Positions 11,327-28,431 of a stretch of DNA of 64,000 bases are shown here, piece by piece. The stretch's first letter is position 1, and every line of letters starts with the position of its first letter. A program made the translations under genes and the position numbers. Below the pieces are notes generated by a model. It made no database searches, was not told where the DNA came from, and saw only the letters and a program-made list of their open reading frames with translations. Source of the DNA: Phycisphaerales bacterium. Its GTDB lineage: Bacteria; Planctomycetota; Phycisphaerae; Phycisphaerales; SM1A02. The DNA is taken from the NCBI GenBank assembly GCA_029268515.1, contig JAQWNP010000016.1, forward strand, positions 62,001 to 126,000, given 5' to 3'.

Positions 11327-13768
11327 ATGCTAAAGAGATTGGTAGTCAGTTTGGGGATTGCTTCTTTCGTGCTTTCTTATCCAGCAGTCGCCCAAGAATG
11401 GGTCGTATTGAATGACCAGACGGCTAGCCACATCTCAGCAAGTGATACACTTTTTGAAACTGATCAAGAAGAGAAGGATTATGCCTGGGAAGATCTTGAT
11501 CGTGATGGCTGGACTGATCTTGTCATTGTGCGGAAGAGTCCATTTACCTCCAGTGGAAAATTCGCAAATGTTCTCCTCATGAATGAGTCTGGTGTATTGA
11601 CTGACCGCACTTCCGAGTACGCCAGCCTCTCTGATGTACCCGGCGATAATGGATTCAATACACCAACCAATGATCGCGATGTGATCATCGTTGATATCGA
11701 TGGTGACCAATGGTTGGATATCGTCACCGCAACAACGCTCAGCGATAGTGATTCAAAGGCGATAGGCCATCCCAGAATCTACATGAACCTTGGTGAGATC
11801 AACGGCGTCTGGCAAGGCTTCCGCCATGAAGATGGGCGCATCCCTCAGATTATGACCTTGACGGGAGATCCCGTGAACCCCCGCTTCTGCTCAGTGACAG
11901 CAGCAGATGTCACTGGTGATGACCGTGTGGAACTTTACTTTGGCGACTATGACAGTAGTGGCGCTGGCGGCGAACCACAGGACTCGAGCCTTGACGTTAA
12001 CAACCGCTTGTTTGTCAATGATGGCAACGGCTTCTTCACCGACTCCATGCAAACCCGCATGGACGCAAACATGCTTCTATCAGCCTTCGGCGCTGCCGCC
12101 CAATTCGCGGACATCAATAACGACGGCGCAATAGATCTCGTCAAGCAAACCTCATTGAATGCCCCGCAGCATGTGGCAATTGTCTATAACAATCCACTTA
12201 ATATTGGTTTCTTTAATATCTATGATGAAGTGTATTCCCTCGCCCCATATCACATTAGCGTTGGCGAGCTCAACAACGACGGATTACTTGACATCGTTGT
12301 TACTGATGACAGTACCGATCGATATATGCTTCAGCTTCCAGGTACCGGATCTGAGCCAGACTTCCTGCAACAGGAATTCCAGCTAGAAGGTGGCGGCAGT
12401 GAACTTGCATTCGGAAGCAATAGTGTCATTGCCGATCTTGATGCAGATGGCTGGAACGATGTCATCATTGCCGATGTTGATGTGGACATTGACACCTGCA
12501 ACTCTGATCGCACACATATCTACCGTAACTTTGGCTTCCAAGGCGCCCCAGGCGACGCCGTCGTACTTCGTGAAGACGGCAATATCATTCCAAATTCAAT
12601 GCTTGTTGGCGTCCATGACGTTGCGGTCTTCGATATCAATAATGATGGCAGCCTGGATATGGTGATTGGCCGTTGCACAGGCAGCGAAATTTGGATTCAT
12701 GAGTCCTCAATCTCATTCACCTTTCCCGACGGCGTACCCACCACGCTTGATTCTGGGGTAGCGACCACATTCCAAGTCGATCTCGCCATTGGCTCAGGAA
12801 CGCTTGATCCTGCGACACCCAAAATGCACTATTCGGTTAATGATGGCCCATACACCGAAGTCAGCTTAGCTGAGACCCGCGGCTCTCTTTCACTCTTTGC
12901 AACATTGCCTGGCTTCGTCTGTGACGACAACGTTAAGTTCTACTTCTCTGCCTCGCTACAAGGTGGCATAAGTAGCACGAGCCCAGTCAACGCCCCAGCA
13001 TCCACATATACCGCACGCGCATCGGATGGCGATATTGTTCTTATTGACGAAGACTTTGAAGGGTCTGTCGACGAGTGGACCATATCCGACGACGGATCGC
13101 TCACAACTGGTGCATGGGAAAATGTAGATCCCAATGGAACCATTTGGAGTTCTTCAGCATCCGCACCTGAGGATGATGCAAGCGATGATGGCACCCATTG
13201 CTTCGTGACTGGAAACGGAGCACCCGGCGGCAGTGCTGGCAGCGATGACATTGACGGCGGAACCGCTTATCTCGTCTCGCCTCAATTAGACCTTGCAGGT
13301 GGTGATGCAGTCATTAGTTGGTCACAGTGGTTTTTCAATAGCTCTGGCACTGGAGAAGATTCTCTTGCCGTGAGTCTGTCGAACGATGATGGTGCCACTT
13401 GGGTAGCCGCAAATTCTACACTTGGGACAGGCGGCGCATGGGAGCAGGTAAATCTCACTGTCAGTGATTATGTCGTTCCATCAGACCAAGTCCGTGTTCG
13501 ATTCGCTGCAGGCGATGCTGCCCCAGCTTCAGTTGTGGAGGCTGGCATGGATGAGTTCTTAGTAACCAAGGCCGGCTGCGATGATCCGACCAGCTGCCCC
13601 GGTGACTTCGATGGCGATGGGTCAGTCGGACTCAGTGACTTCTCATCTTTCCTTGTCTTGTTTGGCAGCACTTGCTCAGGATGTCCAGAAGATATGGATG
13701 AAGATGGCAGCGTGGCACTTGGGGACTTCTCTGCGTTTCTTGTTGTGTTTGGCACAAGTTGCCCATAA
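11327..13768 (+). CDS. Secreted FG-GAP/VCBS-repeat protein with dockerin-like C-terminus
   Basis: An 813-residue protein with a signal peptide ending near SYPAVAQ and a good ribosome site (GAGGAGAG) before the ATG. Residues 40-460 hold FG-GAP/VCBS repeats (AWEDLDRDGWTDLVIVR, IIVDIDGDQWLDIVTA, VGELNNDGLLDIVVTDD, VFDINNDGSLDMVIGR), expected to form a propeller. A region near 570-740 (DEDFEGSVDEWTISDDGS onward) looks like a jelly-roll or MAM-like beta-sandwich. The protein ends with two dockerin-like segments (GDFDGDGSVGLSDFSSFL, DMDEDGSVALGDFSAFL) and FGTSCP. It has no visible catalytic motif; a surface-binding or structural role is likely. Confidence 0.87.
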   Translation: MLKRLVVSLGIASFVLSYPAVAQEWVVLNDQTASHISASDTLFETDQEEKDYAWEDLDRDGWTDLVIVRKSPFTSSGKFANVLLMNESGVLTDRTSEYASLSDVPGDNGFNTPTNDRDVIIVDIDGDQWLDIVTATTLSDSDSKAIGHPRIYMNLGEINGVWQGFRHEDGRIPQIMTLTGDPVNPRFCSVTAADVTGDDRVELYFGDYDSSGAGGEPQDSSLDVNNRLFVNDGNGFFTDSMQTRMDANMLLSAFGAAAQFADINNDGAIDLVKQTSLNAPQHVAIVYNNPLNIGFFNIYDEVYSLAPYHISVGELNNDGLLDIVVTDDSTDRYMLQLPGTGSEPDFLQQEFQLEGGGSELAFGSNSVIADLDADGWNDVIIADVDVDIDTCNSDRTHIYRNFGFQGAPGDAVVLREDGNIIPNSMLVGVHDVAVFDINNDGSLDMVIGRCTGSEIWIHESSISFTFPDGVPTTLDSGVATTFQVDLAIGSGTLDPATPKMHYSVNDGPYTEVSLAETRGSLSLFATLPGFVCDDNVKFYFSASLQGGISSTSPVNAPASTYTARASDGDIVLIDEDFEGSVDEWTISDDGSLTTGAWENVDPNGTIWSSSASAPEDDASDDGTHCFVTGNGAPGGSAGSDDIDGGTAYLVSPQLDLAGGDAVISWSQWFFNSSGTGEDSLAVSLSNDDGATWVAANSTLGTGGAWEQVNLTVSDYVVPSDQVRVRFAAGDAAPASVVEAGMDEFLVTKAGCDDPTSCPGDFDGDGSVGLSDFSSFLVLFGSTCSGCPEDMDEDGSVALGDFSAFLVVFGTSCP

Positions 13769-13834
13769 TCCTGGCCGTTGGCAATGGCGGGCATGAACCT
13801 GCTGGCAGCATGCCTCAGATCGTTCTTATTGGGC

Positions 13835-13870
13835 GATGAGAGGTAGATTGCCACCTCATGGAGTTTTTTC
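13835..13870 (+). terminator. Rho-independent terminator after the FG-GAP gene
   Basis: An imperfect stem (ATGAGAGGT with ACCTCAT, one bulged base) is followed a few bases later by a run of six T. It lies about 70 bases after the FG-GAP gene stop and before the next gene's ribosome site, which suggests separate transcripts. Confidence 0.65.
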
Positions 13871-13955
13871 TTGCCCCCATGGGAAATGCGACTGATACTT
13901 AGGAGCCCTGGCGAGGGATGGTCTGTTTAATGCGCACATCAGGAGACTCCGTGAG

Positions 13956-15539
13956 ATGAAAGATCGTCCACAGGCATGCCTAGCATCATCTTGTATTTAT
14001 TTGCCATCACAAATGATCCACTTTGCAATCATTTGCTTGCTTCTACTCACAGGGGGCATGGCTGCGCCAGCACTCGCACAACGTGAGCCAAGCTCTAACT
14101 CTAAAACAGTCGAAGAGACACCAAAGCGTGAAGAGATAAACGCAACTCTAAAGCGACCACAATCACTTTCCGCGACTATCAAACGCGTCAAAATACCGAA
14201 TGGACCGTATCGCAACTTGGGTGGCTCGCTGTGTGAAACACAGAGTGTCTCTCATACAGAAAGTGATTTCGGACCTGGCACTTATACATTGCAAGCTGGA
14301 TTTGTTGAAGGTGAGTACGCCGCCGCAAGCTATACGCTGGATGCGAGTGACTTCCCTTTGAAAATCGAAACAGTAGAAATGTTGTTTTCGACAAATCAGG
14401 CCATCGTACAAACCACCACAGAATGGTCATTCATGGTCTGGGATGGAACGCCTACCAATGGGCAGCTCATCGCTTTATTTTCATCAGACGATGCAATACT
14501 GCCGCACATGGTTCTCGGCCCTGGTACTGAAGGCGGTGTCCTTACGGTGAGCGTTGATCCTACTGATCCAGACCAGATTATCATTTCAAACGCTTCTCAA
14601 ACCAACACCTTTACGATCGGTTTTCGAATTGATTCCCACAATGCACCTGGCTCCCCCTGCCTTGTGGCACCCAATCCAAACCAAAATGCATTCCCAACAA
14701 CCGACCTAGACGGGGTTGCTTCGCCCACCGGAAATTGGATCAATGCTGTGGAAGGCTTGTTTTGTTGTAGTCCAGGTTGGTTTAACTTCCAATCTTTTCC
14801 TGCAATTTGCACGCCCAGTGGTGATTGGGTGATGCGAGCCAGCTATACACCATTCTCTTGCGAAGAAGAAGCTGGCGCTTGCTGCCAGCCCTCTGGAACA
14901 TGTATTGAAACCACTGAGTCAGGCTGTTTGGCGATAGGCGGCAGCTTCCAGGGAGTCCTCACCTCATGTCTCAGTGCGAACTGCCCTTTGCCAGCCGGCG
15001 CCTGCTGCGTTGAAAGCACTGGTGGTTGTGCCGTCGTGACAGAGCAAAGCTGCAACACATTTCAGGGGCTATACCAGGGCGATGGCACCACTTGCGGCGA
15101 GTTGATTTGTTTTCCGGAGGGTGCATGCTGCCTGCCCACAGGTGAGTGCACCGACAATACGACTCCCGAGAGCTGCGCCGCTTTAGGTGGCACTTTCCAA
15201 GGCGATGGCACGAGCTGCACGAGTACGACATGCCCTAATCCAACCGGAACCTGCTGCAGTGAATCCGCCAGTTGCTTTGAGCTCGATGAAGACACATGCC
15301 TCGTATTGGGAGGTACCTGGGGCGGCCCCGGCACCAACTGCCTAGCCAATGATCCTTGCGCCTCTAATGACTGCCCCACCGACTTTAATGATGACGACGT
15401 CACCGATCTCGGTGATTTCTCTCTACTACTTGTTCATTACGGAACAGTTAATAGTATTGCAGATGCAAACGGCGACGATGAGACTACGCTCGAAGACTTC
15501 TCATTACTACTGATTAGTTATGGCCAAGCCTGCCCATAG
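13956..15539 (+). CDS. Secreted Cys-rich CC-repeat protein with dockerin-like C-terminus
   Basis: A 527-residue protein with a signal peptide ending near PALAQ (a later Met at residue 20 is also possible). Residues 70-300 form a beta-rich domain without a recognised family. Then come four tandem modules of about 37 residues, each opening GACC or GTCC with regularly spaced Cys (for example GACCLPTGECTDNTTPESC) and a GGTFQGDGTSC-like centre. Two dockerin-like segments (DLGDFSLLLVHYG, TLEDFSLLLISYGQACP) close it. The same Cys module occurs twice in the metalloprotease upstream. Disulfide-stabilised repeats for extracellular binding are likely, but the function is unknown. Confidence 0.82.
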   Translation: MKDRPQACLASSCIYLPSQMIHFAIICLLLLTGGMAAPALAQREPSSNSKTVEETPKREEINATLKRPQSLSATIKRVKIPNGPYRNLGGSLCETQSVSHTESDFGPGTYTLQAGFVEGEYAAASYTLDASDFPLKIETVEMLFSTNQAIVQTTTEWSFMVWDGTPTNGQLIALFSSDDAILPHMVLGPGTEGGVLTVSVDPTDPDQIIISNASQTNTFTIGFRIDSHNAPGSPCLVAPNPNQNAFPTTDLDGVASPTGNWINAVEGLFCCSPGWFNFQSFPAICTPSGDWVMRASYTPFSCEEEAGACCQPSGTCIETTESGCLAIGGSFQGVLTSCLSANCPLPAGACCVESTGGCAVVTEQSCNTFQGLYQGDGTTCGELICFPEGACCLPTGECTDNTTPESCAALGGTFQGDGTSCTSTTCPNPTGTCCSESASCFELDEDTCLVLGGTWGGPGTNCLANDPCASNDCPTDFNDDDVTDLGDFSLLLVHYGTVNSIADANGDDETTLEDFSLLLISYGQACP

Positions 15540-15571
15540 ATAAGAATGTAAAAGTACAACAAACGAAACAG

Positions 15572-15600
15572 AACGCGCGGATAGTGCGCGTGTTGTTTTC
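15572..15600 (+). terminator. Terminator after the CC-repeat gene
   Basis: A short GC-rich hairpin, ACGCGC paired with GCGCGT over a seven-base loop, is followed by GTTGTTTTC. It lies 33 bases past the CC-repeat gene stop. Confidence 0.65.
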
Positions 15601-16054
15601 AATTTAAGAAAAGTCAATTTGTCTTTTTAGTGATTCCTTCGAACCTCTTCCGAGAGTGCTGCGGATGTGTTCATGGAATGTGACTGAAGAGGAGAACTTC
15701 ACGACCCACATCCAAAACGGACATGACTCAGTCCTGCGTAAAAGGCATCCGTTGCCTCCCTCCCCTGCTGCGCAGAAATGCTCTGAAAGAGTCGTGATAA
15801 GTTAACTGGCCGTCAGCTACTTCTTGCTGTTTTGGACACTGAGTCATGATCATAGAGATGCTGATAAAAACAGTTTTGTGGCGATCAGCCGTCTCTTGAA
15901 GTTTGGTCACTCAGTGGGTTCCTTATAAGTCATAAGCATCCAGCTGGCGAACCTCTCATTTGCCAGCCCAAAGCACCCGGCGGGACCAACCGCCGGGTGC
16001 TTTCTTCATAAGGCGGCTCGTCAGCCTCTGCCGAATTGGCCATAATAGAAGCCC
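15601..16054. other. Gene-less stretch with inverted repeat and its own terminator
   Basis: No convincing protein-coding frame is seen in these 454 bases. An 11-base inverted repeat, CATGACTCAGT at 15722-15732 and ACTGAGTCATG at 15838-15848, encloses about 105 bases. A further weak pairing (CCAAAAC at 15711 with GTTTTG near 15872) could extend the fold. A second hairpin, GCTGAT with ATCAGC, lies near 15860-15890. The strong terminator at 15970 closes the stretch. The arrangement fits an untranslated RNA gene, but no known RNA family was recognised. Confidence 0.4.
15970..16010 (+). terminator. Strong hairpin terminator
   Basis: A perfect 14-base stem, AAAGCACCCGGCGG with CCGCCGGGTGCTTT, has a six-base loop (GACCAA) and is followed by CTTC. 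Its A-rich left arm would also allow termination from the other strand. It lies 370 bases after the previous gene's own terminator and 45 bases before the next ATG, so its transcript is not obvious. Confidence 0.85.
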
Positions 16055-17977
16055 ATGACCGAGACCGGATGCAAAGATTGCGGCAAAGACGTTCCTCTAG
16101 AGCCAGGACCACTAGAGCGGCCCACTGATCGACCTGTTGCTCTCTATGACGGCAACTGTGGCTTCTGTCGTGACAGCCGAGACCGATTGCGTGCATTATC
16201 TGGAGATAGGATTGCCTGGATACCGCTTCAGTATGCGGATCGCTATGGAATAGAGATTCCACAACAGGAACTTCAACAATCAGTTCATCTCCTCGAACCA
16301 AATGGAGATCTTACGCGCGGCGCAGAGGCCATTTTCAGAATGATGGACCTCGGCCAAATAAGACGTTGGCCCAGATTTTTTTACGAGTTCATTCCACTTG
16401 CCCCAAACATTAGTGAAATTGGATATCGCACCGTCGCGAGGAATCGCCCCCTGACAACATTGGTGGCACGCTTTTTATGTGGCCGCCCTGCTGTACCAGA
16501 GACATATCAGTACGCTCGTCGTATTTTTCTCTTCTCTCTCGCCGTGGTTTATTTGATTGCCTTCTTGTCTTTTTTTATGCAAGCCCCGGGGCTCATCGGC
16601 TCTGATGGAATACTCCCTGCAGCAGACTTTTTACAACAAGTTGACGCTGCTTATGCAACATCCAGCAGCCCCTTCTTTATTTTGCCCACATTGGCTTGGT
16701 TTAACAGCTCAGATGGTTTTATAAACATCATGTGTATCGCTGGAATAGCCCTTGGGATTATGGCGATGATTGGTTTCTTGCCAGTTTTTTGCTTCGCTGC
16801 AATGTGGATCCTCTATCTTTCCTTAGTAAACATTGGCCAAGAATTTTTTAGTTTTCAATGGGACATCTTGTTACTTGAAGCAGGTTTTTTAGCGATCTTT
16901 TTTGCTCCATCGAGTTGGTCGCTTTACTCAAAACGTGCCTCGCGCCCCTCCACACTCATACGATGGCTCCTGTGGTGGCTACTCTTTCGACTTTTGTTTC
17001 TCTCGGGACTTGTGAAGCTACTTAGTGGTGATCCCACTTGGCTTGAGTTCACTGCCTTGGAGTACCACTACTTCACACAACCACTTCCAACATGGACAAG
17101 CTGGTATGCCACGCATTGGCCACATTGGTTTCAGATCACATCAACAGTGATCATGTTCATTATCGAATTGGGAATACCCTTCCTCATTTTTCTACCTCGA
17201 GTACCGCGACTCATCGCCGCATCCGCCATCACGCTATTAATGCTACTGATTGCTGGCACCGGCAATTATGGTTTCTTTAATCTACTCGCCATCGTTCTTT
17301 GCCTTCTTCTCATCGATGACGGCAGTTGGCGCTTTTTTACTCCCAAACGACTCGCAACAAAGATGTCATTCATTTTGCCACAACGCGAGCATCTCATTAA
17401 GCGGAGTGTCAACTTTCTTGTATTGCTCTTTGTACTTCCATTGACAATCGTGATTGGAATCAATGATGCCGCAAGGACTGCTGGCTCGGCTTATCAGATT
17501 TCAATTCCAGAAGCAGCAAGCCCTCTCATTCGTAGCCATGTCGCCAACTCCTATGGACTCTTTCGCGTTATGACTGTGCGACGACCAGAGCTTGTCATTG
17601 AAGGCAGCCAGGATGGACTGACTTGGAAGGCCTACTCATTTAAGTGGAAGCCTGGAGCCTTGAATCGAGCCCCAGCCTTCGTAGAACCATATATGCCAAG
17701 ACTTGATTGGCAAATGTGGTTTGCAGCCCTGAATGTGGAGCAACATCGCATCCCTGGTTGGCTTCAAGCATTCGGAAAGAAACTCAGTCAAGGCAGTCCA
17801 GCGGTTCTTAATCTTCTTGATTCCAATCCATTTCCTGAGTTTCCGCCAGAACGAGTACGCTTTACCCTATACCAATACACTTTCACCGATCGACAGACTC
17901 GTGCTACAACAGGCGAATGGTGGACTCGGTACAGAGTATTTAGTTATCCACTATTTGGATATCAAGAAAAGAGATAA
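16055..17977 (+). CDS. DCC (DUF393) domain fused to lipase maturation factor family membrane protein
   Basis: A 640-residue fusion. Residues 28-140 form a DCC thiol-disulfide oxidoreductase-like domain with the motif YDGNCGFCRDSRDRL (Cys35, Cys38). From about residue 160 the protein is a polytopic membrane protein with many hydrophobic segments, resembling the lipase maturation factor (LMF1) family. The conserved stretch PRLDWQMWFAALN lies near residue 550 and QYTFTDRQTR near the end. LMF proteins help extracellular lipases fold in animals; bacterial members are uncharacterised. An assisted-folding or disulfide-related role is inferred. The HAD gene starts four bases after its stop. Confidence 0.87.
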   Translation: MTETGCKDCGKDVPLEPGPLERPTDRPVALYDGNCGFCRDSRDRLRALSGDRIAWIPLQYADRYGIEIPQQELQQSVHLLEPNGDLTRGAEAIFRMMDLGQIRRWPRFFYEFIPLAPNISEIGYRTVARNRPLTTLVARFLCGRPAVPETYQYARRIFLFSLAVVYLIAFLSFFMQAPGLIGSDGILPAADFLQQVDAAYATSSSPFFILPTLAWFNSSDGFINIMCIAGIALGIMAMIGFLPVFCFAAMWILYLSLVNIGQEFFSFQWDILLLEAGFLAIFFAPSSWSLYSKRASRPSTLIRWLLWWLLFRLLFLSGLVKLLSGDPTWLEFTALEYHYFTQPLPTWTSWYATHWPHWFQITSTVIMFIIELGIPFLIFLPRVPRLIAASAITLLMLLIAGTGNYGFFNLLAIVLCLLLIDDGSWRFFTPKRLATKMSFILPQREHLIKRSVNFLVLLFVLPLTIVIGINDAARTAGSAYQISIPEAASPLIRSHVANSYGLFRVMTVRRPELVIEGSQDGLTWKAYSFKWKPGALNRAPAFVEPYMPRLDWQMWFAALNVEQHRIPGWLQAFGKKLSQGSPAVLNLLDSNPFPEFPPERVRFTLYQYTFTDRQTRATTGEWWTRYRVFSYPLFGYQEKR

Positions 17978-22139: not shown

Positions 22140-22506
22140 CTATATAGAAAGTCCACCGTTCATAGAATGAAAATATAAAGGCCTTGCAAGCATGTCATCA
22201 TCGTACCGATCAACTGGTTTTTTATGTCAACCCTGGCCAAGATGACCAACTCGCACTTACCAGCAACTAGTTTATGACACACCTACGCGAAGCACTCATA
22301 CGATCAAAGTACTGTAGATTGACGTAAACCCTTTATCACTAGCCACTCACGCAGTTAACACTAAATCTTTACGATCCTTGCTGATGCCCTTTTTAATGGC
22401 CTTTTTCCAAAATATTGTGAGCCATGGCACGCCTCCTGCCGTTAACAGTAAGGACCAGTGGCGAACCGAACCCCTCTTCGCAACGTAGAGAGTGGGGAAG
22501 GAGTAA
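22140..22506. other. Intergenic stretch with hydrolase remnant and small-gene leader
   Basis: These 367 bases hold the hydrolase remnant at 22205-22288. The remaining part, up to the strong ribosome site GGGGAAGGAG before 22507, holds two similar GTTAAC-containing segments (near 22336 and 22441), but no gene was recognised. Confidence 0.5.
22205..22288 (+). pseudogene. Remnant of a second alpha/beta hydrolase gene (3' end)
   Basis: These 84 bases align without gaps to the last 28 codons of the hydrolase at 21143-21226, with 66 of 84 bases identical by my count. The remnant reads T-D-Q-L-V-F-Y-V-N-P-G and then D-Q-L-A-L-T-S-N, then has a TAG stop where the intact gene has Trp, and continues F-M-T-H-L-R. 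Nothing of the rest of the gene was seen upstream, where the sulfotransferase now stands. It is a decayed duplicate, not an active gene. Confidence 0.8.
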
Positions 22507-22710
22507 ATGATGGCTCATCTTATCTTTAACGTCTGGCGAGAACGCCTTATCGAATACCTTAGTGCCGTTGAGCTCGAGCGCGACCTTGGTCAAGGTCAGA
22601 TTCTCCTAATTACCAATACCACTGAAGAGGATCTTCGCGAACTCCACATGTATGGCTGGAAAGTCAGTGAAACAGCTTACGCGATGATCGAAAAGGTCAA
22701 CCTTCGTTAG
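22507..22710 (+). CDS. Small paralogous protein A, unknown function
   Basis: A 67-residue protein with a strong ribosome site (AAGGAG) just upstream; the second ATG at 22510 has better spacing and may be the real start. It is paralogous to the small protein at 25927: a gapless alignment over 61 residues has 27 identities by my count. The C-terminal half is the most conserved part, D-L-R-E-L-x-x-Y-G-W-x-x-x-E-T-A. No Cys, signal peptide or membrane segment is seen, so it is probably cytoplasmic and helical. No known family was recognised. Its last 14 bases overlap the convergent methyltransferase gene. Confidence 0.75.
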   Translation: MMAHLIFNVWRERLIEYLSAVELERDLGQGQILLITNTTEEDLRELHMYGWKVSETAYAMIEKVNLR

Positions 22711-23455
22711 CCGCGTCTACCCTCTTCACGCATTCCATAACAACCTCATCAACCTGAGGGTCTTGGATGATCCCGGGTTGAAATATCAGTGGCTGTTGTT
22801 TTTTCAACTGTCTCGGAAACACAAACTTGTTGTACCAGCTCAGGGCCATGCGCGAGAAGTACTTCAAGAACCAGAGTCCTACTCTCGTGATCATGCGAGA
22901 TTCAAGCTGCATTCCATAAGCCGCACTACGGCGGACCGTGATACCGTGAGCATGAAGAAGCGCTTCAAGTGCATCTGGCTCATACCGTCGCGCATGTCCG
23001 ACCAATCGATCAAAGCCAGTCCAGGCAGATTGATAGAGGGGCACGGAAAGAAACAAAACCCCACCCTTTCGTAAGACACGAGTGATCTCACCTAACGCCA
23101 TTCGATCATCTTCAATATGTTCGAGTACGTCGAAGGCGCAAACGAGATCCATCGACTCATCCTCAGCTGACAGTGATTCAATCGAACCCACAACTGCTTG
23201 CCCACCAGCATCGTTGAGGCGGCTCACCGCAACTGGGCTCAGATCAACGAACTGGGTACCCTCAACTGGAAGCCGCGGTCGCAATCCAGGTCCAATCTCA
23301 AGTCGATCTTTGCACTGCTCAAAATATGGAGAGATAGCTGGCCATGTATTGAATGCCTCGGCCTGATGGAGCTCAACACCCTGCCACAGGTGATTATAAA
23401 AATCGCGATTGACCTGCGTTAAGGAGCAATGGTTTTTTCCCATTTGAGTATTCAT
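22697..23455 (-). CDS. Class I SAM-dependent methyltransferase
   Basis: A 252-residue methyltransferase of the Methyltransf_11 type. The SAM-binding motif I is RLEIGPGLRPRLP near residue 52, followed by FVDLSPVAVSRL, VVGSIESLSAEDESMDLVCA and DVLEHIEDDRMALGEITRVL, where the acidic and post-motifs lie. LRKGGVLFLSVPLY is a typical strand-turn after it. The C-terminal 60 residues are basic and hydrophobic (RMALSWYNKFVFPRQLKK), which may hold a membrane-facing helix. The substrate is unknown. It converges on small protein A, overlapping it by 14 bases. Confidence 0.9.
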   Translation of the reverse strand: MNTQMGKNHCSLTQVNRDFYNHLWQGVELHQAEAFNTWPAISPYFEQCKDRLEIGPGLRPRLPVEGTQFVDLSPVAVSRLNDAGGQAVVGSIESLSAEDESMDLVCAFDVLEHIEDDRMALGEITRVLRKGGVLFLSVPLYQSAWTGFDRLVGHARRYEPDALEALLHAHGITVRRSAAYGMQLESRMITRVGLWFLKYFSRMALSWYNKFVFPRQLKKQQPLIFQPGIIQDPQVDEVVMECVKRVDAANEG

Positions 23456-23521
23456 AAAATGATCGTCTCAAAAACCATTTTCGACAAAGAGACCCAACAC
23501 CTCTTTCAATCAGACTGAGTT

Positions 23522-24856
23522 TCAATCACCGAAAGTTGTCTCGAATGCATCTTCATTGAATTTGGCACCAAGCTGTTCAACGATGCTATGCATATCAGCC
23601 TTACTATTTGAAAGTGCGCTGGTAGCACCAGGCGATGGCGTCATATTAAAAATAATGCCATCAGATTCATCGATTTTCGACTCACCCATAAGCATTTTTC
23701 GCGCATTCTTGTCGATGATTTGTGGCCGGATACCTGTATAACCATGCGCAAACTCAAGATCATCCACCTCAAGCGCTGGCACGATTTTTTGAGCTGCTTC
23801 TAGAAAACTCCGCTTTCCATAGACCGGTATCTCATAACCAATATTCTTATAGACAAAGTCGTGAATGTCTTTGTCCTTCATCAGATGATACAGAACCGAT
23901 GCAACATCCCGATCGAAACGCACAGACTCTAGGAATCCCCAAGCTGTCTTTGCATTATGACGCTCTAGCACTGGCATCATCAATGCAGTGGGTCCGAATC
24001 GCGTCTTATCGGGCTGGGTTAGATCTGGATCACCATGAATGGCGGCAAAGGGAAGCTTATCATTTTGCACAGTGTAAACCTTGCCATTAAGAACATTAGG
24101 GGCAAAGAAGAAGTTTCCAGTAATAGGCATCACTGAAAGATGGTGTGCATACCCCATCTTCTGAGCAATGAGCAAACTATGTGCGCCTGCAGATACAACA
24201 ACCATTTTGGCATGAAACCTTCGCCCTCGGGTGGCGCGTATTTCAAAACCATCATCAGTCCGCTTTATTTTTTTGGATCGACACTTTAGATGTACGTTGA
24301 CATTCTTGCCATCAACATGCTGCGCTTCTTCAGCAAATGATTCAGTCAAAAGACCATAGTCAACGGCATAACCTTCTGGATTATGCAATGCCGCAATTTG
24401 TTCAGGCCTCGCACCACCACCCTGCCCCTTGACAACGTTTGGTTCAATCTTATTGATTCCATCTCTATCGAGAAACTCAATTGTCGGGAACAGATGCTTA
24501 AAGTCCTCGACGCGTTTTTTTACAACCGCGCACTCTTCTTCTCCGACACCAAGCAACATCTTTCCATAGCAACGTGACATCTTCTCGTCTTCAGCAATAC
24601 GTTGAATATACCGCAGTGTCAGATCTGAAGCAGTTTTAACCTTCGCCGCCTTCTCAAGGCTGTAGTTGGTCTCAATGTCACCGCAGTGCAACGTTTGACT
24701 ATTGTTATGAGCGTTCGAATTAAGTGGGTCCAGATGATCGTACTTCTCTAACAATCCAATACTGTGAATATCGGTAAACGCTGATAGCAGATACATAAGT
24801 GAGCAGCCACTAATTCCTCCGCCAATAATTACAACATCATATTCATATCGACTCAT
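23522..24856 (-). CDS. Malate:quinone oxidoreductase-like FAD enzyme
   Basis: A 444-residue flavoprotein. The N-terminal dinucleotide-binding motif is DVVIIGGGISGCSLMYLLSA. The sequence NAHNNSQTLHCGDIETNYS and the later VMPITGNFFFAPNVLNGKVY place it in the family of membrane-associated malate:quinone oxidoreductases, which oxidise malate to oxaloacetate and reduce quinone. It is about 50-100 residues shorter than typical Mqo proteins. The substrate could therefore be another 2-hydroxyacid. It stands 66 bases upstream of the methyltransferase on the same strand and could be co-transcribed. Confidence 0.82.
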   Translation of the reverse strand: MSRYEYDVVIIGGGISGCSLMYLLSAFTDIHSIGLLEKYDHLDPLNSNAHNNSQTLHCGDIETNYSLEKAAKVKTASDLTLRYIQRIAEDEKMSRCYGKMLLGVGEEECAVVKKRVEDFKHLFPTIEFLDRDGINKIEPNVVKGQGGGARPEQIAALHNPEGYAVDYGLLTESFAEEAQHVDGKNVNVHLKCRSKKIKRTDDGFEIRATRGRRFHAKMVVVSAGAHSLLIAQKMGYAHHLSVMPITGNFFFAPNVLNGKVYTVQNDKLPFAAIHGDPDLTQPDKTRFGPTALMMPVLERHNAKTAWGFLESVRFDRDVASVLYHLMKDKDIHDFVYKNIGYEIPVYGKRSFLEAAQKIVPALEVDDLEFAHGYTGIRPQIIDKNARKMLMGESKIDESDGIIFNMTPSPGATSALSNSKADMHSIVEQLGAKFNEDAFETTFGD

Positions 24857-25013
24857 TTTTTAATTCGCTTCTAAAGAGGGTCTCTCGGGATATTCCACGC
24901 CGCGCACTGTAGCATATCTTGAGTACCATTCGGTACTCCGCATTGGGCTGCAATGACGATGCCTATCGCACGCCAGGACTGATAGAATTGTATTACTCTG
25001 AAGGACATGATTC

Positions 25014-25379
25014 ATGCGTATAAAGTACACACGGCTATTTACCGGGGATGATGGCCAATCTCACTTTGAAGATGGTTTCATTGATCTCAATGAAGTCATG
25101 CCCGGTGTTGGCCTCTCCGCCTTGATGGAGCACCATAGCGTACAATTTGCTGAAACCGCTGCAGGTGGAACCTACGACTGGCATTGTGCACCGCGCCGCC
25201 AACTACTCGCCATTCTTGCTGGAACCGTTGAGTTTGAAACACGCCAGGGTGAGACTCAAAGTTTTACAACCGGCGACCTACTGATTGCCGAGGATCTCAC
25301 AGGAGGTGGGCATCGCTGGAAGCTCATTGGCGAAGAACCGTGGCGACGGCTTTACGTCCATCTTGAATCGGATGAGTAA
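25014..25379 (+). CDS. Cupin-domain protein
   Basis: A 121-residue single-domain cupin. GGTYDWHCAPRRQLLAILAGTVEFET forms cupin motif 1 in two parts, and FTTGDLLIAEDLTGGGHRW forms motif 2, with its metal-ligand His near residue 102. The metal centre has one or two fewer His than a full set, so metal binding is uncertain. Cupins of this size bind small molecules or act as isomerases or sensors. It is divergent from the Mqo-like gene and separated from the next gene by 547 bases. Confidence 0.82.
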   Translation: MRIKYTRLFTGDDGQSHFEDGFIDLNEVMPGVGLSALMEHHSVQFAETAAGGTYDWHCAPRRQLLAILAGTVEFETRQGETQSFTTGDLLIAEDLTGGGHRWKLIGEEPWRRLYVHLESDE

Positions 25380-25926
25380 ACAGAACAGTAACGAAGCCAC
25401 ACAGTCATTCGATTAATCGATCACACATTAATGATGCTGATTGCGTAAGAAATCCGTGGGTCTCTTACATATCGCATTAAGTTATTCAATATTCGTGCAC
25501 TAAATACCAATAGAATTGAGTTTGTTTTTTAGCCCAGAAAGAGTGGCTGTCAGACCAAGAAATTTCTTCCGCTCACCACACAGAAACTTCATGCTGAACG
25601 CTCGCCAAAGAAAATTGATTGGGTATTTGCCTCAAGAATGAACACTGCTTCTTTGATCAAGTCCAAGGCTTGTAGGGGCTCCATTCAGAAGGCCTCCAGA
25701 GCCGCTCTGAGGCTCGCTGGAGCGCCCTGCCATTGATATGGGCACCAAATCAGAGGCAAGGCTGCTGGCGAGCATATACCCCATCAGCCGCTGGAGCGAC
25801 TCCGACGAAGGATCTCAAAAAAGATTTCATCGTTTTTGCCCCCGCAAGTTCGGAACTCCGCAATGTCTTCTAGACAGCGATCACGTTCAAGATGCTGAGA
25901 TCTAAGAAGTAAATCGGAGCACTGCC
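25380..25926. other. Gene-less stretch upstream of small protein B
   Basis: No convincing coding frame is seen in these 547 bases. The one recognisable structure is a stem-loop at 25674-25728. The left half has A+T-rich sequence without repeats. The ribosome site (GGAG) for the next gene is at 25916. Confidence 0.5.
25674..25728 (+). promoter_or_regulatory. Long stem-loop upstream of small protein B
   Basis: AGGGGCTCCA at 25674-25683 pairs with TGGAGCGCCCT at 25718-25728 except for one extra base. Inside, CCTCCAGAG (25693-25701) pairs with CTCTGAGG (25705-25712) with one bulge. No T-run follows, so it is not an ordinary terminator. A structured leader or small RNA is possible. Confidence 0.45.
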
Positions 25927-26127
25927 ATGACAAATCAAGGGTTCAACCAATGGAAGATGAGTGTTACAAAGGCCATCAATGAGGTTGAAGTACAATACGA
26001 CCTTTTCTCCGGCGAGATTTTCCAGGCGTCCAATACCAGGGACAGCGACCTCCGAGAACTTTATGGTTATGGCTGGTCTCCACAGGAAACCGCAATGGCT
26101 GTTACTGAAGCCGTTGGATTGCGATAA
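25927..26127 (+). CDS. Small paralogous protein B, unknown function
   Basis: A 66-residue protein, paralogue of the small protein at 22507, with GGAG seven bases before the ATG. Shared residues include FN-x-W near the start, N-T in the middle, DLREL followed two residues later by YGW, then E-T-A, and a final L-R. It has no Cys, signal peptide or membrane helix. A strong terminator follows at 26193, so it is probably a single-gene transcript. The two copies lie 3.4 kb apart, each preceded by a long leader region. The function is unknown. Confidence 0.75.
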   Translation: MTNQGFNQWKMSVTKAINEVEVQYDLFSGEIFQASNTRDSDLRELYGYGWSPQETAMAVTEAVGLR

Positions 26128-26192
26128 ATATTGATACGTTTCATTTGATTAAACACGCCTCGAGGCGTTCATTTCAAATAAACGATGCACGA

Positions 26193-26228
26193 AAGCGGGC
26201 TCGTCCAGTCGGACAAGCCCGCTTTTTT
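26193..26228 (+). terminator. Rho-independent terminator after small protein B
   Basis: AAGCGGGCT-C-GTCC pairs with GGAC-A-AGCCCGCTT (one mismatch, loop AGTC) and runs into seven T. It ends the transcript of the small protein. Confidence 0.88.
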
Positions 26229-26364
26229 TGCTTGCCTGGGCGAGTCCAGCTCTATTTCCAACGTAACAAGTTCCGCTACACTGCCGTGGTTCAAGAAACT
26301 CAGAGCTAAGCCGTCAGGCAACTGCTTTTTTGCTGCTCACGCACACGCTAGAGGACTTTGCCCA

Positions 26365-28431
26365 ATGTATCGAATACAGAACCAGTCACTGTTGATCCTT
26401 GTGATCATCACCTCAAATCTTCTTTTTGCAATAGTTCCACAAGCGTATGGCCAAGAGAACACCCTTGAATCTGCACTCGATACTGCAAGGAATGATGTCT
26501 ATCCTGCCTTGGTTAACATCGCGGTGGTTGGCCAGAACTATCAAGGTGGTCGTGAACAGAAGTTTCCTGCAGCTGGCAGTGGCGTCATTGTGACTCCGGA
26601 TGGCTATGTGCTCACGAACTACCATGTGGCCGGCGAAACAACCCGTATCACCTGCACACTACCATCAGGTCGAGAGTTTGATGCGAGCGTGATCGTGCAT
26701 GACCCATTGACTGACTTGTCTGTCTTAAAAATTGAGGACCAAGAGAATGATCTCCCGTGCGCGCCCCTGGGAGACTCTGATGCACTCCAGGTTGGCGACT
26801 ATGTGCTGGCCATGGGTAATCCCAATACCAATTCAAACTCAATGACCCTTGGTATTGTCTCCCACCCCAAACGAGTCTTCACAAGCTTCACTGGGAACGC
26901 TATTGATGAACAGGATCTAGGCGGCGGACAGACAACGGGTCTCTTTACACGCTGGATTCAACACGATGCACTTATTCTTCCAGGCAATAGCGGAGGCCCC
27001 CTTGTTAATCTGAAGGGTGAGATCATCGGTATCAATGAACTTGGGGGGCAAGGCGTTGGATTCGCGATCCCATCCAATCTGGCGGGACACGTTCTCAAAC
27101 AGGCTATTGAGCATGGCGAGGTACGGCGTGGCTGGATTGGCGCATCAATTAGACCTGTTGATGAGCTCGGACGGGAGGATGGCGCCTTAGTGACTTGGGT
27201 TGTACCAGCTGGACCAGCTGATGTTTCCGGCATCAAGGCAGGCGACGTGCTTCTCGAGGTCGATGGCGAAGCGATTGCTGCAAAGAACTTTGAGGCGATT
27301 CCACCTATTCTGAAAAGGCTTGCTGATCTTCCTGCCGGAAAAGATGCCACCTTGGTGATCATGCGCGGCGGCGAACGTCGAACCTGTTCTGTGCCCGTTG
27401 CTCCAATGGAGGCTTACCTCGGTGATCAAGCTGAGATCAAACCACTTGGTATCACCGTACGCGATATTACTCGTCAGATGTCGCTTGCACGTCGTTGGCC
27501 AAATCGTGATGGCGTACTCATCACTGGAGCACGCGCCGGCAAACCTGCTGATAAAGCACGCCCAGCTATCAAGTCCGGTGATGTCATCTTGAGCATCAAC
27601 GGTGTGCCAGTCAATAATCACCAAGATCTTCAAACACAAGCAGGCATGATTGAGCCAGAAACTCCAACGATTGTGGAACTTCGTCGTGGACAAGAACATG
27701 TCATTACGGTCGTTGAAATCAATCGTGAACGTGAGTCTCAATCTGGTGGCGCCTTACCTGTTGCTTGGTTGGGCGTTAAGACCCAAGTCATGACCTCACC
27801 TGTCGCTGAAGCATTAGGCATGGAAGGACAGACTGGCTTTCGCATCACTCGTGTTTTGCCAAATACAGAGGCTGCTGATGCTGGACTACAAACCGGCGAT
27901 GTCATTACCCATATGAATGACCGCATCATCAAAGCCCGTCGCATACAAGATGCGCCGTTATTGGAACGGATGATCGAGAATCAGACGATTGGTGATACGG
28001 TGAGCCTTACATTGAACCGCAACTCTGAGACCATACAAATTCCCGTTGTGATGGAGCAGATTCCCAGCGGTTCCAGGGACGCCGCAAAGAGTGGTGACGG
28101 CATTCTCGAATTCGATGTGCGTGACCTAACTCCGATGGATCTGATTGAAAAACGCTGGCCTTCAGACCTCGAGGGTGTCCTCATTACCGATGTTGAAAAC
28201 GGTGGCTGGGGTAGCCTTGCTGGACTCAGTGGCCAGGATGTTGTCATCAGCATCCAAGGCAATAAGACACCAGATGTGAATGCTTTCGATAAGGCCATGA
28301 AAGACGTCCACACCAACCAACCAGAGGTAATTGAAGTCTTCATACAGCGCGGGCATCGCACAACGTTTCTGTTTATTGAACCAGTCTGGATGCCAGATAA
28401 CAAAGTCAAGCCAGCAACATCAAATACTTAA
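26365..28431 (+). CDS. HtrA/Deg-like trypsin-type protease with several PDZ domains
   Basis: About 688 residues from the ATG at 26365; an earlier in-frame ATG lies inside the terminator and is rejected. After a signal peptide (ending near PQAYGQ) comes a trypsin-type domain with catalytic His87 (TNYHVAGE), Asp117 (PLTDLSVLKI) and Ser209 (PGNSGGPLV). Up to four PDZ-like segments follow, near residues 250-340 (PADVSGIKAGDVLLEVDGEA), 360-440, 460-550 and 570-670. HtrA proteins cut misfolded envelope proteins, and PDZ domains select substrates. Four PDZ domains is more than the usual one or two. An apparently inactive relative follows directly. Confidence 0.9.
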   Translation: MYRIQNQSLLILVIITSNLLFAIVPQAYGQENTLESALDTARNDVYPALVNIAVVGQNYQGGREQKFPAAGSGVIVTPDGYVLTNYHVAGETTRITCTLPSGREFDASVIVHDPLTDLSVLKIEDQENDLPCAPLGDSDALQVGDYVLAMGNPNTNSNSMTLGIVSHPKRVFTSFTGNAIDEQDLGGGQTTGLFTRWIQHDALILPGNSGGPLVNLKGEIIGINELGGQGVGFAIPSNLAGHVLKQAIEHGEVRRGWIGASIRPVDELGREDGALVTWVVPAGPADVSGIKAGDVLLEVDGEAIAAKNFEAIPPILKRLADLPAGKDATLVIMRGGERRTCSVPVAPMEAYLGDQAEIKPLGITVRDITRQMSLARRWPNRDGVLITGARAGKPADKARPAIKSGDVILSINGVPVNNHQDLQTQAGMIEPETPTIVELRRGQEHVITVVEINRERESQSGGALPVAWLGVKTQVMTSPVAEALGMEGQTGFRITRVLPNTEAADAGLQTGDVITHMNDRIIKARRIQDAPLLERMIENQTIGDTVSLTLNRNSETIQIPVVMEQIPSGSRDAAKSGDGILEFDVRDLTPMDLIEKRWPSDLEGVLITDVENGGWGSLAGLSGQDVVISIQGNKTPDVNAFDKAMKDVHTNQPEVIEVFIQRGHRTTFLFIEPVWMPDNKVKPATSNT

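Follow-up and report, generated by a model that had tools for sequence, protein, structure and literature searches.

Two short open reading frames in the window (the whole 64,000-nucleotide stretch of DNA analysed) are almost certainly paralogues belonging to a genuine protein family. The family is previously unnamed, lineage-restricted, about 66 residues long and of a common kind. The best explanation found for its function, to which we give a probability of about one in three, is a cytosolic, mostly acidic four-helix protein whose binding target is another protein of the cytosol, not DNA.

Two paralogous genes

The two genes and their ribosome-binding sites were as follows:

22496-22503, + strand: ribosome-binding site of copy 1, GGAAGGAG, seen in the sequence and conserved in genome G001
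22507-22710, + strand: copy 1, small protein, open reading frame; 67 amino acids from the ATG at 22507, 66 from the ATG at 22510
25916-25919, + strand: ribosome-binding site of copy 2, GGAG, seen in the sequence and conserved in G001
25927-26127, + strand: copy 2, small protein, open reading frame of 66 amino acids

The earlier note had aligned the two proteins without gaps over 61 residues, with 27 identities, and had read them as paralogues with a ribosome site each. Both frames were found where it had placed them, each with a ribosome site, and a recount by BLASTP (single comparison) gave 28 identities and 41 positives over 66 residues, zero gaps and an E-value of 3e-19. Shuffling the residues of one copy 20,000 times produced at most 14 identities. 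The DNA identity at the three codon positions was 0.53, 0.64 and 0.35, a pattern pointing to selection at the protein level. For copy 1 the second ATG (22510) is the probable start, because its orthologue in G001 has that ATG only. This orthologue (C488:6631-6828) is 79% identical, and that of copy 2 (C488:3226-3423) 67%.

The window's own genome (G000) has these two copies and no further family member. Both copies are found in G000 and G001, in the same order around a malate:quinone oxidoreductase (Mqo) gene, so the duplication predates the split of the two. In the sequence tree both are on long branches. Judging from gene order, copy 1 is at the ancestral place, the interval between LMF1 and Mqo, and copy 2, which comes behind a cupin-like gene, is the additional one. 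In genus g1 the two copies are diverged and their upstream regions unlike, suggesting that they are regulated separately. The long gene-less leaders described previously are present here, with 367 bp before copy 1 (22140-22506) and 547 bp before copy 2 (25380-25926), but they are particular to the window genome: elsewhere the closest upstream gene is ~180-300 bp away.

Distribution and conservation

The profile search covered the relatives, the order and all 181 genomes of one Phycisphaerales family, with the class and phylum as samples. It found 25 copies, in 22 of the 181 genomes and 6 of the 45 genera; named records among the carriers are Phycisphaerae or Phycisphaerales MAGs. Outside this bacterial family, the class and phylum samples gave weak matches only and no convincing relative. 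As far as searched, the small proteins are confined to a single subgroup within one Phycisphaerales family, in agreement with the planctomycete-only distribution predicted for them. In the RNA polymerase beta tree (28 genomes), the carriers occupy neighbouring positions within a single region of the family. Gene presence on this tree takes two state changes, readable for example as a gain plus a loss in G019, versus about six in shuffles. Together, these tree results favour one gain followed by mainly vertical descent. A 3.5 kb contig binned in a g36 genome (G296:C38, L054) carries a g8-type small gene with g8-type neighbours. This copy is probably a binning contamination, because both its sequence and its neighbours are those of another genus.

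Family members were defined by a length of 65-75 amino acids, a Leu-Arg-stop end, W9, E21, L26, T37, LxEL, G49 and E54, all of which are found in copy 1 and copy 2. Invariant in the 25 copies were W9, E21, L26, T37, L42, E44, L45, G49, E54, L65 and R66, with Leu-Arg standing immediately before the stop in every copy. The C-terminal half had been described as the most conserved part. Conservation extends beyond that half to W9, E21 and L26, and in nearly all copies to G29-E30; the C-terminal Leu-Arg is conserved as well.

Nei-Gojobori dN/dS ranged from 0.05 to 0.32 for the 25 least diverged pairs from related species. Compared with the G001 orthologues, copy 1 had a ratio of 0.06 and copy 2 one of 0.13, with dS close to saturation. 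The genes are therefore translated and, by these ratios, the family is under purifying selection. Neither of the outcomes named beforehand as refuting, absent homologues or a dN/dS near one, was found: homologues exist and the ratios are far lower. The low ratios support the suggestion of real proteins under selection, and the four-helix models described below predict that they fold. Chance open frames would be short, as these are, but the 25 aligned copies with a fixed stop and motif, the dN/dS well below 1 and the shuffles leave this reading a negligible probability.

No known family had been recognized from the sequence, and the databases agree. Pfam-A, NCBIfam and PHROGs gave nothing above chance (best single-member E about 0.007 to 0.3), none of the family members reached their curated cut-offs, and the PDB showed no relative. 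There was no Pfam helix-turn-helix match of note for the family, and the literature search found nothing relevant on it. Rfam recognized only two tRNAs in the window.

Several weak matches were rejected or set aside. Those of the profile in G076, G780, G838 and G029 look like chance, being apparently antisense or within unrelated long proteins, and those in G636 and G748, members of one other small-protein family, were compared by hhalign and kept as a lead. Matches on Rhizobium/Ensifer plasmids had E-values of at least 1, and the Ensifer segment looks like a GntR-type regulator, as one sister record is annotated. A Klebsiella phage match (E 1) lies within an annotated ADP-ribosyltransferase. 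A fold match in a Tenacibaculum phage was weak (E 0.23).

Chromosomal site and neighbouring genes

When contigs were compared across genera, all copies except copy 2 proved to share a single chromosomal site. It lies 3' of the gene for a DCC1/LMF1 membrane protein and before either Mqo and the cupin-like gene or a PEP-CTERM-like gene. The neighbours in the window were:

16055-17977, + strand: membrane protein (DCC1-like + LMF1 + LMF1_C), syntenic neighbour on the upstream side, at a distance of 4.5 kb from copy 1
22697-23455, - strand: SAM methyltransferase, convergent, with a 14 bp overlap with the 3' end of copy 1
23522-24856, - strand: malate:quinone oxidoreductase (Mqo), the downstream syntenic neighbour in g1, g5 and g8
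25014-25379, + strand: cupin-like small protein without a Pfam match, syntenic after Mqo in g1, g5 and g8, just preceding copy 2

Elsewhere the upstream order is NHL, YtkA, di-haem peroxidase (CCP_MauG), LVIVD protein, DCC1/LMF1 and the small gene. Downstream there are Mqo, the cupin-like gene and MltA and UbiD homologues in g5 and g8, and in g35-g37 the PEP-CTERM-like gene, in some genomes then FeoB, and a DUF2520 protein. The PEP-CTERM, cupin, MltA and UbiD assignments are what the sequences look like to us. In the window, a DUF697 gene, a hydrolase and a sulfotransferase lie between LMF1 and copy 1. The LVIVD/LMF1 cluster, compact in related genera, is broken up here (12695-17977): from the series NHL to LMF1, the window has only LMF1 and a sequence that matches the LVIVD protein in part.

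The statement that the genes have no close partner is only half right, because all copies but copy 2 share one site. This site is syntenic across genera and copy 1 overlaps the methyltransferase at its 3' end, but the small gene is probably a transcription unit of its own. The neighbourhood is old, yet the small gene does not look like an operon partner, because a reversed DUF697 gene lies directly 5' of it in g35 and in G037, and because in G279 it is kept while LMF1 is absent from the 330 bp where it was expected. A reversed gene is directly upstream in seven g35/g37 genomes. No small partner reading frame is common to the loci, the neighbours being LMF1, DUF697, Mqo or the PEP-CTERM-like gene.

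As an accessory factor, the small protein might serve the DCC1/LMF1 membrane protein or else the periplasmic cluster that precedes it (NHL, YtkA, di-haem peroxidase, LVIVD). The gene is downstream of LMF1 and co-oriented with it in nearly all long-enough contigs, and in the 61 genomes searched for both, all carriers had an LMF1 homologue and two genomes had LMF1 alone. We consider such a role unlikely, as common-descent synteny accounts for the proximity, G279 retains the gene without LMF1 at the expected place, in g35 the reversed DUF697 gene stands between LMF1 and the small gene, and copy 2 is located elsewhere. Further, the cluster looks extracytoplasmic, whereas the small protein is short and hydrophilic, without signal or membrane segment.

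Being small and acidic, with two copies near each other, the proteins could also recall a toxin-antitoxin system or phage-derived cargo. This is very improbable: no partner frame is kept adjacent, the chromosomal position is fixed, and there was no match in IMG/VR, no PHROG and nothing above chance in phage records or plasmids.

Transcription and upstream elements

The small gene is probably its own transcription unit, because G279 lost LMF1 but kept the gene, and because strong T-tailed hairpins lie 3' of 8 of the 25 copies, versus 2% of shuffled sequences. Such a hairpin follows copy 2 in both G000 and G001. The generic promoter/terminator scan was not above shuffles, and a hairpin at the ribosome site of copy 1 was rejected (z -0.04, folding like shuffles). 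Two elements were annotated in the window:

22463-22487, + strand: putative promoter-like conserved element GAACCGA-N13-ACGTA before copy 1, very close to the ribosome site
26191-26226, + strand: terminator-like hairpin, then a T-run, after copy 2 (26125-26240 folds with z -5.5)

The long open reading frame of an HtrA-like PDZ protease (26185-28431) begins at the terminator-like hairpin. This gene probably starts near 26366, with a signal-peptide-like sequence, rather than at 26185, because the hairpin spans 26191-26226.

Within each genus, upstream blocks (genus-specific, at loci L061-L075, L081 and L082) are conserved far above their surroundings. All six g35 genomes have TTCTCGGACACACC upstream, and in g36 there are conserved non-coding blocks, for example GAAACATGGC and TTGTCCGATC. 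The GAACCGA-N13-ACGTA pattern occurs once in the genome. Upstream of g35, g36, g37 and g1 copy 1, the sequences allow a reading of GAAC/CACACC with CGTA 21-22 nt further along, at 26-64 nt ahead of the start, a pattern picked after looking. It is absent from g5, g8 and copy 2, the latter having another conserved upstream sequence. Our guess is that it may be a promoter of the extracytoplasmic-sigma type.

Predicted structure and function

AlphaFold2, run with 13 homologues, predicted four helices for both copies, with a pLDDT of 90.1 for copy 1 and 87.3 for copy 2. GRAVY was below 0 in all 25 copies, indicating soluble proteins. The pI was 4.3-5.1 in 20 copies and above 6 in five g35 copies, so acidity is not universal. 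Net charge was negative for helix 3 (-1 to -4) and for helix 4, each in 24 of the 25 copies. The sequence had no signal, no membrane segment and no catalytic or cofactor signature.

Foldseek against the PDB and viral models gave no match with E < 0.001, and the weak matches were mostly XRE-like helix-turn-helix proteins. This likeness (best 2o38_B, E 0.58; VIA Z <= 3.4) would suit a minimal helix-turn-helix DNA-binding regulator, for example of the LMF1/cytochrome-peroxidase locus or of its own promoter. So would an hhalign alignment (probability 83%, 30 columns) of residues 36-65 to a different small protein from planctomycetes, at the first of its HTH-like parts. That protein was chosen because of its earlier weak match to the profile. 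We regard a DNA-binding regulator as possible but doubtful, given the lack of a fold match with E < 0.001 and the features of helix 3. This helix, which would be at the expected place of the recognition helix (an assignment itself uncertain), carries the invariant Leu-x-Glu-Leu and, in 24 of 25 copies, a net negative charge.

The missing catalytic or cofactor signature, signal, membrane segment and operon partner, together with the acidic helices and a fixed motif that runs to the free C-terminus, argue for a protein binder. The protein would usually be made from its own short transcription unit and would bind a cytosolic partner, as a small adaptor or inhibitor. Its likely binding face may comprise helices 3 and 4, the YGW turn and the invariant Leu-Arg at the C-terminus, although these last two residues could be conserved for folding only. 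More speculatively, and improbable as a whole, it would be a new small domain with the invariant free C-terminal Leu-Arg in the binding site, serving a single lineage of marine planctomycetes as an adaptor under separate regulation, and g1 would have two specialised copies.

Lineage-restricted small proteins are common and rarely proven real. Here, the case for reality is made by the 25 copies, together with the evidence of selection, the synteny and a fold model that is consistent. The family settles no known open question. The two paralogues, with their orthologues in a second genome, are a clean test set for small-protein function in uncultured marine planctomycetes.

Comparison with known systems

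A sporadic small planctomycete family (L095, L078, L103, L104) has proteins with an HTH-like central part and a KI..C.LG.F ending; it gave no Pfam match and no significant NCBIfam match. In its members from G636, G748, G817 and G846, the segment SDL..IYxGGW..CETARA.A..LGI is like residues 36-65 of the small protein, a match picked after a weak match. Their N-terminal part is different and they have an extra C-terminal region beyond the segment.

XRE/Cro-type helix-turn-helix domains (e.g., 2o38, 3f52, 3b7h) are compact all-helical domains of 60-70 residues, as here. The matches had E 0.6-10, TM ~0.4-0.5 and VIA Z <= 3.3, and helices 3 and 4 of the small protein differ in being negatively charged.

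Among UBA-like three-helix domains, 7tcy superimposed with VIA Z 2.8 and rmsd 2.6 over 45 residues, with no sequence match. Beyond its turn-helix unit, the small protein has nothing that corresponds to the third UBA helix. UBA domains and the small protein both have a helix, an aromatic/Gly turn and a helix, the turn being MGF/Y in UBA domains and YGW in the small protein.
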